Made by a program: the position numbers and the translations under genes. Shown in pieces: positions 9,531 through 13,867 of a DNA stretch of 34,718 bases. The notes beneath the pieces are model-generated. The model was not told the DNA's origin, ran no database searches, and saw nothing but the letters and a program-made list of their open reading frames with translations. Positions within the stretch are counted from its first letter, which is position 1, and every line of letters starts with the position of its first letter. The DNA is from Gammaproteobacteria bacterium (GTDB taxonomy: Bacteria; Pseudomonadota; Gammaproteobacteria; AKS1): positions 1 to 34,718 of the forward strand of contig JALTKS010000111.1 of NCBI GenBank assembly GCA_027006175.1. The letters are read 5' to 3'.

Positions 9531-10082
9531 GTGAATACGCAACAACAATCATTTATTACAAAGTTCGCTCTGATAAGTTTCCTGCTTGTTAGTGCGGCTA
9601 TTGCTACGGCACAGACTCGTTATGTACAACACGAGAAAATAAATAAAGGTGACACACAACTTTCTCCTTATTTTTCTATTACTCTTTCTGGCGGAAACTG
9701 GTACAGCCCACTCATGCTTAAGGTCTATCACCATGATAATGGCGACAAACAACTTATAGGTCTTAGCAAATTTTCTGAATATGCTTCACGCCAGAACGGC
9801 TATGCGATTTCTGATGACGGCAAAACGATTTTATATTTTCATCAGAACTTACCCGATGATGGAGGGGTTAATAAACCAGGCGGGCTATATGAATACAAAC
9901 ATGGACGGGGAGCTAAGCGTGTACATAGTTTTGTAAGCAACGCCGCATATTTATCTGTGCCACTTCCTCGTAACATCATTGTTTATTCCCAACTGGAAAA
10001 GATCAAAGACTCAATGCGCCTGGATAGCAAATACTATCTTCGTGACACCGATGGCAATGAGAAACTATGGGTTAACCCCTAA
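9531..10082 (+). CDS. secreted hypothetical protein
   Basis: The protein starts with a Sec signal peptide (hydrophobic FALISFLLVSAAIATAQ, cleavage likely after ATA or TAQ), leaving about 155 exported residues without cysteines. The mature part is beta-rich with repeats of short strands such as GYAISDDGKTILYF, which recall a beta-propeller or TolB-like blade, but there is too little for a family call. GTG is the start, with AAGGTG about 10 nt upstream at 9516-9521. It follows the PAS-GGDEF-EAL gene by 63 bp and overlaps the convergent eptA end by 18 bp. Confidence 0.65.
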   Translation: MNTQQQSFITKFALISFLLVSAAIATAQTRYVQHEKINKGDTQLSPYFSITLSGGNWYSPLMLKVYHHDNGDKQLIGLSKFSEYASRQNGYAISDDGKTILYFHQNLPDDGGVNKPGGLYEYKHGRGAKRVHSFVSNAAYLSVPLPRNIIVYSQLEKIKDSMRLDSKYYLRDTDGNEKLWVNP

Positions 10083-11687
10083 CTCAGTGTTAAAAATATC
10101 CTTTTTCTTATCATAAACCTCAGTCTCGACTTCCAGCAAACCTAGTACTGTATGAAAAATATTATCATGCGAGTACGCCACATCACGTAACACTTCCAGC
10201 TTTAACTCTTTCAATGGATTATTATCACCAAACCAGAATACTGCTGGCACATGAATTTGTGCGTCCGGTGCCATGAAGTACGGCATCCCGTGTAAATACA
10301 GACCATTCTCACCAAGTGACTCACCGTGATCACTAATGTAGAACATCGTTGTTTTAAAACCAGTATTTTTCTTTAAAAACGCAATCACTTTAGATAAAAA
10401 ATAATCCGTATATAAAATAGCATTGTCATAGGCATTGTTGATTTCTTCGACACGGCAATCTTCAAGCTGATTGGTCTTACAGGTTGGTTTATATTTTTCA
10501 AATGCTTTTGGGTAGCGTTTATAATAGGCGGGACCATGATTCCCCATTTGATGCAAGACAATCAATATATCGCCGTTTAGTTTACTATCAATATAGGCTT
10601 GTAGCCCCACTAACATGCCTTCATCACGACACTCCTGATCACAAACAGGATTCACATCAGCACGCCTATAACTTTCATAATCAACTCGATCGGCAATTCC
10701 TTTTGAACTTGAATTATTATCACGCCATAAAACATTGACCCCTGCATGTTTCAATACATCTAACAGGTTCTCTCTTTTAGCGGCTTTTCTAATGCTGTAA
10801 TCTTCTTTATCCAATATTGAAAACATACACGGAAGTGATTCGGCGGTTGATGTCCCACATGAATAAACATTCCTTAGGCTGAGGACATTTTGTTTTTCTA
10901 ACAAGGGATTGGTTTGTCGATAATTATTGTTTAGTGAAAATCGATCGGCTCGTGCAGTTTCTCCTACCACCAGTATGACTAACTCTCTAATTCCATCTTT
11001 TTCAAGATCGTGAGCATCTCTACCAGTAGGCATGATAACCGTGTCTTTATCTTTTAATTTAGCTGACATGACTTTACCAGCGGAATAAATATAATAAACA
11101 GGATTTGAATAATATCTAAGTGGTTTATGCTCACGTATAAAAGAAGCATAAAACTTACTAAATAGCATTACCACGGCAACAAGTGCCAACACCGCTACTA
11201 CCAGCATAATCAGTTTATTTTTTATCTCCTGCCCAAGCGATCCTGTCACTATATTTACTCTGTAAATATAATAGGATGGCAGTAAACCTAATAACAAAAA
11301 ATAAATAACCAACTTAAGACTAAAAAGATCTAGGCTTTCACTGACATCCGTGTCCAGTGCATTAATAATCATTCCATCATCAATAACAACATTATAACTA
11401 TCCATAAAATAGGCAGTTAACGAGCTAATTAATATAAATACGATTAAAAATGGTTTGATTGTATATCGACTACAAAAGGGTAAGAATAAAATAACAATGA
11501 TACTCCAGACAAATACTGTCAACGAAGCAACAAACCCGGTGTTTTTCATGTTGAGGGGATAAACCTCAACAACATGGGTAAAAAATGACGTGTTATAGAA
11601 CAGCACAAATAACGTTGTGATTATCATCAACAACTTATTGACAGAAACGTCTTTAAAGTAGTCGCCTACTCTTTGCAAAATATTCAT
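10065..11687 (-). CDS. eptA: lipid A phosphoethanolamine transferase, EptA/MCR family
   Basis: This is an inner-membrane enzyme that moves phosphoethanolamine from phosphatidylethanolamine to lipid A in the periplasm, lowering surface charge. The N-terminal 180 residues hold five hydrophobic helices. The periplasmic sulfatase-fold domain follows from about 230. E243 in VGETARADR, the nucleophile threonine T281 in CGTSTAESLPCMFS, D453-H454 in SDHGES and H466 form the zinc site. Six cysteines pair as in EptA (277/287, 349/353, 403/411). Length (540) is normal. The gene starts 12 bp after the MFS transporter stop, so it is the second gene of that operon and under the same promoter. Family members can confer polymyxin tolerance; whether this one does is not shown. 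Confidence 0.93.
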   Translation of the reverse strand: MNILQRVGDYFKDVSVNKLLMIITTLFVLFYNTSFFTHVVEVYPLNMKNTGFVASLTVFVWSIIVILFLPFCSRYTIKPFLIVFILISSLTAYFMDSYNVVIDDGMIINALDTDVSESLDLFSLKLVIYFLLLGLLPSYYIYRVNIVTGSLGQEIKNKLIMLVVAVLALVAVVMLFSKFYASFIREHKPLRYYSNPVYYIYSAGKVMSAKLKDKDTVIMPTGRDAHDLEKDGIRELVILVVGETARADRFSLNNNYRQTNPLLEKQNVLSLRNVYSCGTSTAESLPCMFSILDKEDYSIRKAAKRENLLDVLKHAGVNVLWRDNNSSSKGIADRVDYESYRRADVNPVCDQECRDEGMLVGLQAYIDSKLNGDILIVLHQMGNHGPAYYKRYPKAFEKYKPTCKTNQLEDCRVEEINNAYDNAILYTDYFLSKVIAFLKKNTGFKTTMFYISDHGESLGENGLYLHGMPYFMAPDAQIHVPAVFWFGDNNPLKELKLEVLRDVAYSHDNIFHTVLGLLEVETEVYDKKKDIFNTELGVNP

Positions 11688-11699
11688 CGTAATAATTCT

Positions 11700-12917
11700 T
11701 TATACATAATCTTTTATTATATCGGTCGGTTTTTGTTTCTCATCCGCATATTTTGTTGCTAGCCAAATAATACTGACAATAATGATAACAATGAGTGGGA
11801 CTACACTTATATTAACTGTCTTCCAACCATAATTATGCTGCAACACACCCGCTGTTAATGATGCGATGGTTACTGTGGTAAAAACAACAAAATCATTTAA
11901 CGCCTGCGTTTTACTTCGCTCTTCAGGTCGGTAGGTTTCTGTTAATAATGTTGTTCCACCAATAAACAGGAAATTCCAGCTGATGCCCAGTAAGGTTAAA
12001 GCAATCCAGTAATGTGTAACGGTATTACCAAGTAAATTGGTCGCTACACATGCCAAACCAAATATCGCCCCGATAAACATGATTTTCAGTATGCCGAATC
12101 TTAATATTAAATGCCCCGTTACAAAAGAAGGTGCATACATACCCAGAACATGCCATGAAATAACAAACGAAGTATCTGAAAAGTTATGACTATTCACATG
12201 CATTGCCAGCGGTGTCGCTGTCATAACAAATGACATTATGCCATATCCCAACATTGCACATAACAGCGCCACAATGAATTTAGGCTGTCTGGCAATAACC
12301 CATAATGATCTGGCATTACTTGTTTGCTGCTTGTTTTCAGCATGATGGTCTTCTGGCAGTTTGAGGAAACCAAGCACAATAAAGATTAAAACATAAAGCC
12401 CTATTATCGAAATGTAACTACCTGCAAAAAGCGCATTTGGAATTGATGCTCGTGTTAAATTGGCCAGGTTGGGTCCGATGACTGCGGCAATCACCCCACC
12501 GAGCAGCACCGCTGAAATCGCTTTACTCTTTAAATCATGTTCGACAATATCTGCTGCGGCAAAACGGAAATAATTACCAAAGCCATTAAATATTCCTATC
12601 AGCACCCCACTTGCAACAAAAAACCAGAAATTTTGACTAAAAATTGCGAAAGTTGCGAGTCCACCACCACTCATTCCAAAAAACGTCGCCAACATAAACG
12701 CTGCTTTTCGCCCAATTCGTGCCATTAACATGGCAGCAGGAATACTGGTTAGCATGACAGCAATAAACATCACGGCAAGAGGGAGCGTAGCCCATGACTT
12801 ATCAGGTGCCATCTCGAGCCCAACCAACGCTGTTGTGGTCAGCAACAGACTTGTGCTGCTCATCATCAATGCCTGACTGACAGCCAGCAGGGGCACATTA
12901 CGGCGAAACATGTTCAT
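11700..12917 (-). CDS. MFS transporter, 12 membrane segments
   Basis: The 405-residue protein has the length and hydrophobic pattern of a 12-helix major facilitator. The conserved loop between helices 2 and 3 is visible as ARIGRKAAFML, and a long cytoplasmic loop (LPEDHHAENKQQTSNARS) separates the two halves. Substrate cannot be read from sequence; efflux is suggested by its TetR partner. The ATG at 12917 has AAGG in reach upstream, with a second Met two codons later as an alternative. It is the promoter-proximal gene, with eptA following 12 bp downstream, and it diverges from the tetR gene across about 120 bp. Confidence 0.88.
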   Translation of the reverse strand: MNMFRRNVPLLAVSQALMMSSTSLLLTTTALVGLEMAPDKSWATLPLAVMFIAVMLTSIPAAMLMARIGRKAAFMLATFFGMSGGGLATFAIFSQNFWFFVASGVLIGIFNGFGNYFRFAAADIVEHDLKSKAISAVLLGGVIAAVIGPNLANLTRASIPNALFAGSYISIIGLYVLIFIVLGFLKLPEDHHAENKQQTSNARSLWVIARQPKFIVALLCAMLGYGIMSFVMTATPLAMHVNSHNFSDTSFVISWHVLGMYAPSFVTGHLILRFGILKIMFIGAIFGLACVATNLLGNTVTHYWIALTLLGISWNFLFIGGTTLLTETYRPEERSKTQALNDFVVFTTVTIASLTAGVLQHNYGWKTVNISVVPLIVIIIVSIIWLATKYADEKQKPTDIIKDYV

Positions 12918-12997
12918 AAAACCAGCCTTAACTAAATTATTCTAATTATTACAAACAATTAACGTTGATATGGATTTATTTTGAATCTACTTCTTAA

Positions 12998-13026
12998 ATA
13001 ACACTTGTAATAGACCGACCGGTCAA
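12998..13026 (-). promoter_or_regulatory. candidate promoter of the MFS-eptA operon
   Basis: On the minus strand TTGACC (13026-13021) is a near-consensus -35. Seventeen bases later TGTTAT (13003-12998) is a weak -10. The -35 is the right half of the dyad described at 13011-13026, so a bound repressor would block it. The -10 lacks the key second-position A, so the promoter is uncertain. Confidence 0.4.
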
Positions 13027-13033
13027 CTATATT
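13005..13033 (+). promoter_or_regulatory. sigma-70 promoter of the tetR gene
   Basis: TTGTAA (13005-13010) and TATATT (13028-13033) are separated by exactly 17 bp. The expected transcription start, about 7 nt after the -10, falls at about 13040, next to the ATG at 13041. The transcript would therefore be leaderless or nearly so, in line with the absence of a Shine-Dalgarno sequence. The 16-bp operator-like dyad fills the spacer. Confidence 0.65.
13011..13026. promoter_or_regulatory. NemR-box-like operator dyad
   Basis: TAGACCGACCGGTCAA has the layout TAGACC-N4-GGTC(A/T)A of the box bound by E. coli NemR, with a perfect GACCGGTC core palindrome. It overlaps the spacer of the tetR promoter and the -35 of the opposing promoter. 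Binding by the adjacent TetR protein would repress both directions. The site match is read from sequence; binding is inference. Confidence 0.65.
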
Positions 13034-13040
13034 CTTTTTC

Positions 13041-13652
13041 ATGGCGATTGAACAAACAACTCAACAACGCATTATCGACTCTGCCTTTGAGCTAATCTAT
13101 GCGCAAAGCTATGCCGAAGTCGGTGTTGCGGCTATTTGTGAAAAAGCCGGGGTTAAAAAAGGTAGCTTCTACCACTTTTATAAAAGCAAACAAGAACTCG
13201 CTATTGCGGTGCTTGAAGAAAAGTTTATACAACAAAAATCATCCATCCTTGATACAACCTTTACAGGTGAACACGCTGCACTCGATGAAATTGCCCTATT
13301 TCTCGAAAAAATTTATCAAATACAGTCCACATTAAAAGAAACAACAGGTCATGTACTCGGCTGCCCTTATGGTAACATCGCAATCGAGCTTTCAAGCCAG
13401 GACGAACCCATCCGTAAAAAAGTAGATCACATATTTTCTCGCAGCATCCACAGTATTCGTGACTGTTTACAGCGTGGTGCTGATGAGAATCAATCGGATC
13501 TACATGGCATTGATGTTACTGCTACCGCTGATGCGATGTTTGCTTATCTTGAAGGCATTATCCTTATGGCTAAAACACAAAATAATGCTGATGCCATAAA
13601 AAAACTTGCACCCGCAATATTAAATATCCGTATTTATCCAAATAACGCTTAA
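13041..13652 (+). CDS. TetR-family repressor, NemR-like
   Basis: The 203-residue regulator has its helix-turn-helix at about residues 25-47 (VGVAAICEKAGVKKGSFYHFYKSK). The ligand-binding half carries LGCPYGNIAIELSSQ at 107-120. NemR of E. coli has its redox-sensing cysteine (C106) in a similar Gly-Cys position, and here it is C108, so sensing of electrophiles or chlorine species is plausible but unproven. The gene diverges from the MFS-eptA operon and shares an operator dyad with it, which argues for repression of both and of itself. The ATG matches the usual N-terminus of the family and has no ribosome binding site. Confidence 0.88.
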   Translation: MAIEQTTQQRIIDSAFELIYAQSYAEVGVAAICEKAGVKKGSFYHFYKSKQELAIAVLEEKFIQQKSSILDTTFTGEHAALDEIALFLEKIYQIQSTLKETTGHVLGCPYGNIAIELSSQDEPIRKKVDHIFSRSIHSIRDCLQRGADENQSDLHGIDVTATADAMFAYLEGIILMAKTQNNADAIKKLAPAILNIRIYPNNA

Positions 13653-13654
13653 TC

Positions 13655-13867
13655 AATATTGAAGAGAATGAACGTATTTTGCTTGATATCGCCTTACGTA
13701 CCATTAACGATCCAGACAGTGTTTCGCAAACTGATATCGATGCCGCGCATGCACAAGGCTGGAGTGATCACGATATTTTTGATGCCTCTGCACAAGCAAG
13801 TAATAACCGTGCTTTTAATTATCTATTACGTACGTTCAATATTGAAAAACAAGGCGTGTTTGCATAA
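13655..13867 (+). pseudogene. C-terminal remnant of an AhpD-like (carboxymuconolactone decarboxylase family) protein
   Basis: Directly after the tetR stop an open frame encodes NIEENERILLDIALRTINDP and then VSQTDIDAAHAQGWSDHDIFDA, ending about 28 residues later. This matches the last 60-70 residues of peroxidase-related AhpD-like proteins, which are normally 150-190 residues long. The N-terminal half with the redox CxxC and histidine is missing, because tetR occupies the sequence upstream. No ATG or ribosome binding site precedes the fragment in this frame, only a TTG at 13679. Functional expression is unlikely. Confidence 0.55.

Follow-up and report, generated by a model that had tools for sequence, protein, structure and literature searches.

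A NemR-type operator within a tetR promoter facing an MFS-eptA gene pair in a gammaproteobacterium, and its possible extension to lipid A modification

The dyad TAGACCGACCGGTCAA (13011-13026, strandless), located in the promoter of a tetR gene, is a predicted NemR-type operator, because it holds a fixed place in the promoters of tetR homologues and the same site is present at Escherichia coli nemR. It lies in a stretch of 34,718 nucleotides (contig JALTKS010000111.1), hereafter the window. The account favoured here, to which a probability of about 0.5 is given, is that a NemR-type self-repressor, once partnered with an ahpD-like gene, was brought by rearrangement next to an MFS transporter gene and eptA, which it would now co-repress and co-induce.

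Genes of the locus

The genome holding the window (G000, 2.47 Mb) was compared with three congeners, G001, G002 and G003 (JALTKP010000140.1; assembly 80% complete). The MFS gene (11700-12917, minus strand; 405 aa) is followed on the same strand by eptA (10065-11687; 540 aa), the second gene of the pair, and 12 bp (11688-11699, minus strand; 39 bp in G003) separate the MFS stop from the eptA start. The tetR gene (13041-13652, plus strand; 203 aa) diverges from the pair, with the predicted operator between it and the MFS gene. This gene order, with its coordinates and strands, agreed with the first-pass annotation.

By family score the eptA product is a full-length lipid A phosphoethanolamine transferase. 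It scored 632.6 bits with NCBIfam NF028537 (cut-off 500), both Pfam domains (EptA_B_N and Sulfatase) were found, and the motifs GETARAD, SCGTSTAES and SDHGES were all kept in an alignment to the MCR-1 structure 9nww. The earlier label of "MFS efflux" held as to family (Pfam MFS_1, 99.9 bits) but not as to efflux, no specific NCBIfam model having scored above its cut-off with this protein; a PDB sequence search with it gave no match.

Transcription of eptA from a promoter of its own within the MFS 3' end, without co-transcription with MFS, was weighed and is improbable. A candidate, ATGAGA-16-TATAAT, is found 28 nt ahead of eptA, adjoined by the half-operator ACCGACCG (11723-11730), an 8-mer found twice in the window, a count reached by 3 of 100 shuffles. 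An equal promoter score was, however, obtained in 62 of 300 shuffles, neither the promoter nor the half-site is conserved in G003, and no terminator-like site was found between MFS and eptA.

The operator in the tetR promoter

The dyad fills the 17-bp spacer of the tetR promoter (13005-13033, plus strand), TTGTAA (13005-13010)-17-TATATT (13028-13033), and the same layout is found in homologues and at E. coli nemR. The dyad is of the TAGACC-N4-GGTCTA type that NemR-type repressors bind. On the minus strand its right half is TTGACC, the -35 of a candidate promoter directed towards MFS; both features had been described from the letters and were confirmed. With the -10 stopping 7 nt ahead of the ATG, tetR probably has a leaderless mRNA. 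Across the class (L064-L093) the -10 of NemR-type tetR genes likewise lies about 6-7 nt from the ATG, which suggests that leaderless mRNAs are conserved.

The number of occurrences does not set the dyad apart: chance predicts 0.21 copies of GACC-N4-GGTC in the window, and one or more were present in 19 of 100 shuffles. The window count could not exclude a chance match; position-specific conservation ruled it out. The dyad is the sole full match in the 2.47-Mb genome. A 25-nt run containing the dyad and the tetR -10, AATAGACCGACCGGTCAACTATATT, is identical in G003, while most of the adjacent 37 bp on the MFS side has diverged there. The class was surveyed in a sample of 369 genomes, from which 30 homologous tetR loci were taken, window and G003 counted in. 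ACC-N4-GGT stands at -24 to -28 of the start codon in 24 of these genes, and at the remaining six loci the operator is degenerate or displaced; typically TTGACTTGACCGACCGGTCWACTATAAT is separated from the ATG by about 6 nt. About half of the homologous loci have a second operator ahead of the downstream gene. Exact operator matches in the 369 genomes numbered 15, all but one at a homologous tetR, and the reversed-operator control gave no match across the same genomes. Inspection of the E. coli MG1655 sequence showed TAGACCGACTGGTCTA at -27 relative to the nemR ATG. This comparison makes it nearly certain that TetR represses its own gene through the dyad.

The regulator and its probable signal

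The TetR protein consists of a Pfam TetR_N helix-turn-helix domain and a TetR_C_13 or similar C-terminal domain. It is 22% identical to E. coli NemR, whose structure 4yze was its second-best PDB match (phmmer, 1.1e-11). All 30 homologues share C33, C108 and K178, the last two of which align with NemR Cys106 and Lys175. At the positions of NemR C21, C98, C116, C149 and C153 the protein has no cysteine, I19 and S118 taking the places of C21 and C116. In NemR, according to a review, C106 together with K175 serves the response to hypochlorite, and C21 together with C116 the response to electrophiles (PMC7464077). As the C106-K175 pair is kept while C21 and C116 are missing, a thiol oxidant is the likely signal rather than electrophiles in general, and the electrophile sensing first proposed for this locus goes too far.

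The proposal that tetR is NemR-like was borne out. Resemblance to NemR in operator sequence, operator position and the Cys106/Lys175 pair is well supported by the comparison; judged by its neighbouring targets or its remaining cysteines, the protein is not a NemR ortholog.

Loss of an ancestral partner gene

In relatives the homologous tetR adjoins an AhpD-like gene (resembling TIGR01926, with a score under the cut-off of that model), an AhpC/TSA peroxiredoxin gene or TusA/DsrE2, without MFS or eptA. TusA and/or DsrE2 are linked to tetR at L076, L077, L082, L087 and L091, which suggests a sulfur- or persulfide-related signal in part of the TetR group.

In G003 the AhpD-like gene is intact behind tetR (L061 1406-1978) and keeps its own operator. 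Comparison with G003 revealed in the window a remnant of this "peroxidase-related" gene, its last 70 codons (13655-13867, plus strand), directly behind tetR. A clean deletion of about 0.45 kb has fused the end of tetR with codon ~119 and removed the 5' part of the AhpD-like gene along with its operator; the dyad thereby remains as the one full operator of the genome. No other AhpD-like copy was found there. The remnant still looks constrained (dN 0.10, dS 1.25), and the loss is therefore recent. It is too fresh for TetR conservation to say much about selection after the deletion, and such conservation was dropped as proof of an MFS-eptA role following the loss.

Origin of the arrangement

The tetR-MFS-eptA trio is present in the window genome and in G003, both from uncultured gammaproteobacteria, and absent from G001 and G002; the MFS-eptA pairing, looked for in close relatives, thus recurred in one congener but not in the other two. 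Identity between G000 and G003 is 84% for TetR, 85% for MFS and 76% for EptA, and the trio has been kept across a dS above 1.6 (TetR, dN 0.096 vs dS 1.61). The MFS gene, a hypothetical gene of the type starting at 9531 and a GGDEF-EAL gene are linked in G000, G001 and G003, and in G002 MFS is still near the 9531-type gene. In G001 there is no eptA between MFS and the 9531-type gene, and a CHAT gene, not tetR, stands upstream of MFS. In G002 the MFS gene, eptA and a tetR-ahpD module occupy distant places. A cytochrome bd oxidase subunit I gene (L061 5671-7008) lies between eptA and the 9531-type gene in G003 and is absent from the window.

In the EptA tree the window and G003 copies are joined next by the stand-alone, SulP-linked copy of G002, with support of 100/99; the second eptA of G000 and of G003 falls in a different branch. 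A recent foreign or mcr origin of eptA was ruled out by this placement, and plasmid matches were all below 60% identity. By parsimony, the eptA of the genus and the tetR-ahpD module would have joined the MFS gene in the ancestor that G000 and G003 share. The eptA homologues often adjoin SulP-type sulfate permease genes, on either side and in several families (L033, L034, L055, L056, L057), and a functional link is possible.

Elsewhere the operator was found upstream of none of 34 other MFS loci. A loose ACC-N4-GGT occurred at two of them (L007 at -215 and L010 at -96), without the operator core and flanks. Pfam scans showed no second TetR among 33 upstream neighbours of MFS genes, and among 38 upstream neighbours of eptA genes MFS_1 appeared only at G003. 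An old conserved MFS-tetR-eptA cassette was ruled out by the missing trio in G001 and G002 and by the 34 MFS loci. On these comparisons the arrangement is a lineage-specific rewiring by local rearrangement, rather than a general logic of eptA.

Control of MFS and eptA

In the proposed mechanism, TetR binds the dyad inside its own promoter and represses itself, as the comparison supports. A thiol oxidant (reactive chlorine, oxygen or sulfur species) would modify Cys108, perhaps with Lys178, and cause release in the manner of NemR. The ancestral partner of TetR would have been the AhpD-like peroxidase-related gene with its second operator. In an ancestor shared by G003 and the window species, this tetR-ahpD module would have arrived divergent to an MFS gene already old, with the eptA native to the genus placed behind that MFS gene. 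As the dyad overlaps the best MFS-ward promoter, TetR probably represses MFS-eptA and would co-induce both genes. Once the ahpD-like gene and its operator were lost, the window genome would have only tetR and, probably, MFS-eptA left as targets.

The candidate MFS-eptA promoter (12998-13026, minus strand) is TTGACC (13026-13021)-17-TGTTAT (13003-12998). At the same place G003 has TTGACC-18-GATAAT, and in both genomes the top-scoring MFS-ward promoter uses the TTGACC of the dyad. With the approximate promoter weights used for scoring, the G003 score was reached by 12 of 300 shuffles; the window score was reached by 104 of 300 and is no better than that of shuffled sequence. The window -10 is poor and lies within the non-conserved part of the spacer.

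These data also bear on a second explanation, that the dyad is the autoregulatory operator of tetR (formerly of ahpD too) only, with MFS and eptA as passive neighbours served by a promoter nearer the MFS start; it is possible, with the odds somewhat against it. Relatives without a nearby MFS or eptA carry the same operator in the same layout, so conservation of the operator needs no MFS-eptA role; since the operator is older than the arrangement, the presence of the dyad alone does not mark MFS or eptA as a target. The TTGACC half is expected from the operator consensus in any case, the MFS-ward promoter at the dyad is weak in the window, and the operator is missing upstream of the 34 other MFS loci. 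The MFS leader, 55 bp (12918-12972, minus strand), is conserved between G000 and G003, the intervening -10 region is not, and a separate promoter could lie in these 55 bp by the MFS start, possibly the weak TCAACG-18-TAGAAT. No good promoter was found in the leader, however (best score 6.2), the best promoter sits at the dyad in both species, and a repressor on 13011-13026 would cover the TTGACC site. The leader also contains a near-palindrome, ATTAACGTTGAT (12958-12969), which is the same in G003 and may be a site for another regulator.

Control of MFS-eptA by the repressor is favoured by the MFS-ward promoter at the dyad, the short MFS-eptA gap and the retention of the trio through a dS above 1.6. 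The co-induction from one shared operator put forward in the first-pass annotation is plausible, as drawn from gene order and the -35 overlap, and joint control of MFS and eptA by a thiol-oxidant-sensing repressor stands at about even odds. The wider statement, that a NemR-type one-component thiol-redox repressor has captured lipid A phosphoethanolamine transfer, is tentative, at a little short of an even chance. An oxidant would then induce outer-membrane modification together with the transporter, in place of two-component sensing of polymyxins or metals, and in the window species, after the ahpD-like loss, this would be the sole role of the regulator besides self-repression.

Comparison with known systems

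The E. coli nemRA-gloA system shares with the window the TetR fold, an operator (TAGACCGACYGGTCWA) at -27 of the regulator ATG inside the promoter, and the equivalents of Cys106 and Lys175. It differs in its neighbours, the window locus having MFS-eptA and the AhpD-like remnant in place of nemA or gloA, and in that the window TetR has a divergent candidate target. AltR of Pantoea ananatis is also a NemR-related TetR repressor of its own and stress-tolerance genes, and its response needs one conserved cysteine, Cys100; its operator is CAATCTAC-N6-GTAGATTG, and its targets are genes for thiosulfinate tolerance rather than for lipid A modification (PMC13178969).

In the mcr-5 operon of Tn6452 an eptA-type gene and MFS-type transporter reading frames are combined in one operon (PMC9462459). 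That operon is transposon-borne, has a ChrB-domain gene in place of TetR, and no NemR-type operator was reported in it (PMC9462459). The pairing of MFS and eptA has a precedent there.

Two-component systems, PmrAB among them, are the known regulators of eptA. In P. aeruginosa, control is exercised by ColRS with zinc (PMC9952513). The eptA genes under these systems encode the same phosphoethanolamine transferase family, but under two-component control, unlike the one-component TetR proposed here. A limited literature search returned no report of a TetR repressor linked to eptA, a weak argument for novelty.

Significance

If the link between the operator and MFS-eptA is false, the comparison still delimits a group of NemR-type regulators whose operator stands at a fixed position, whose mRNA is probably leaderless and whose partner genes handle peroxide or sulfur. 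If the link is true, an eptA gene would have come under an oxidant sensor through a rearrangement that can be traced, with the states before, intermediate and after all present in one genus, and it would become possible to test how envelope modification is recruited into a redox regulon.
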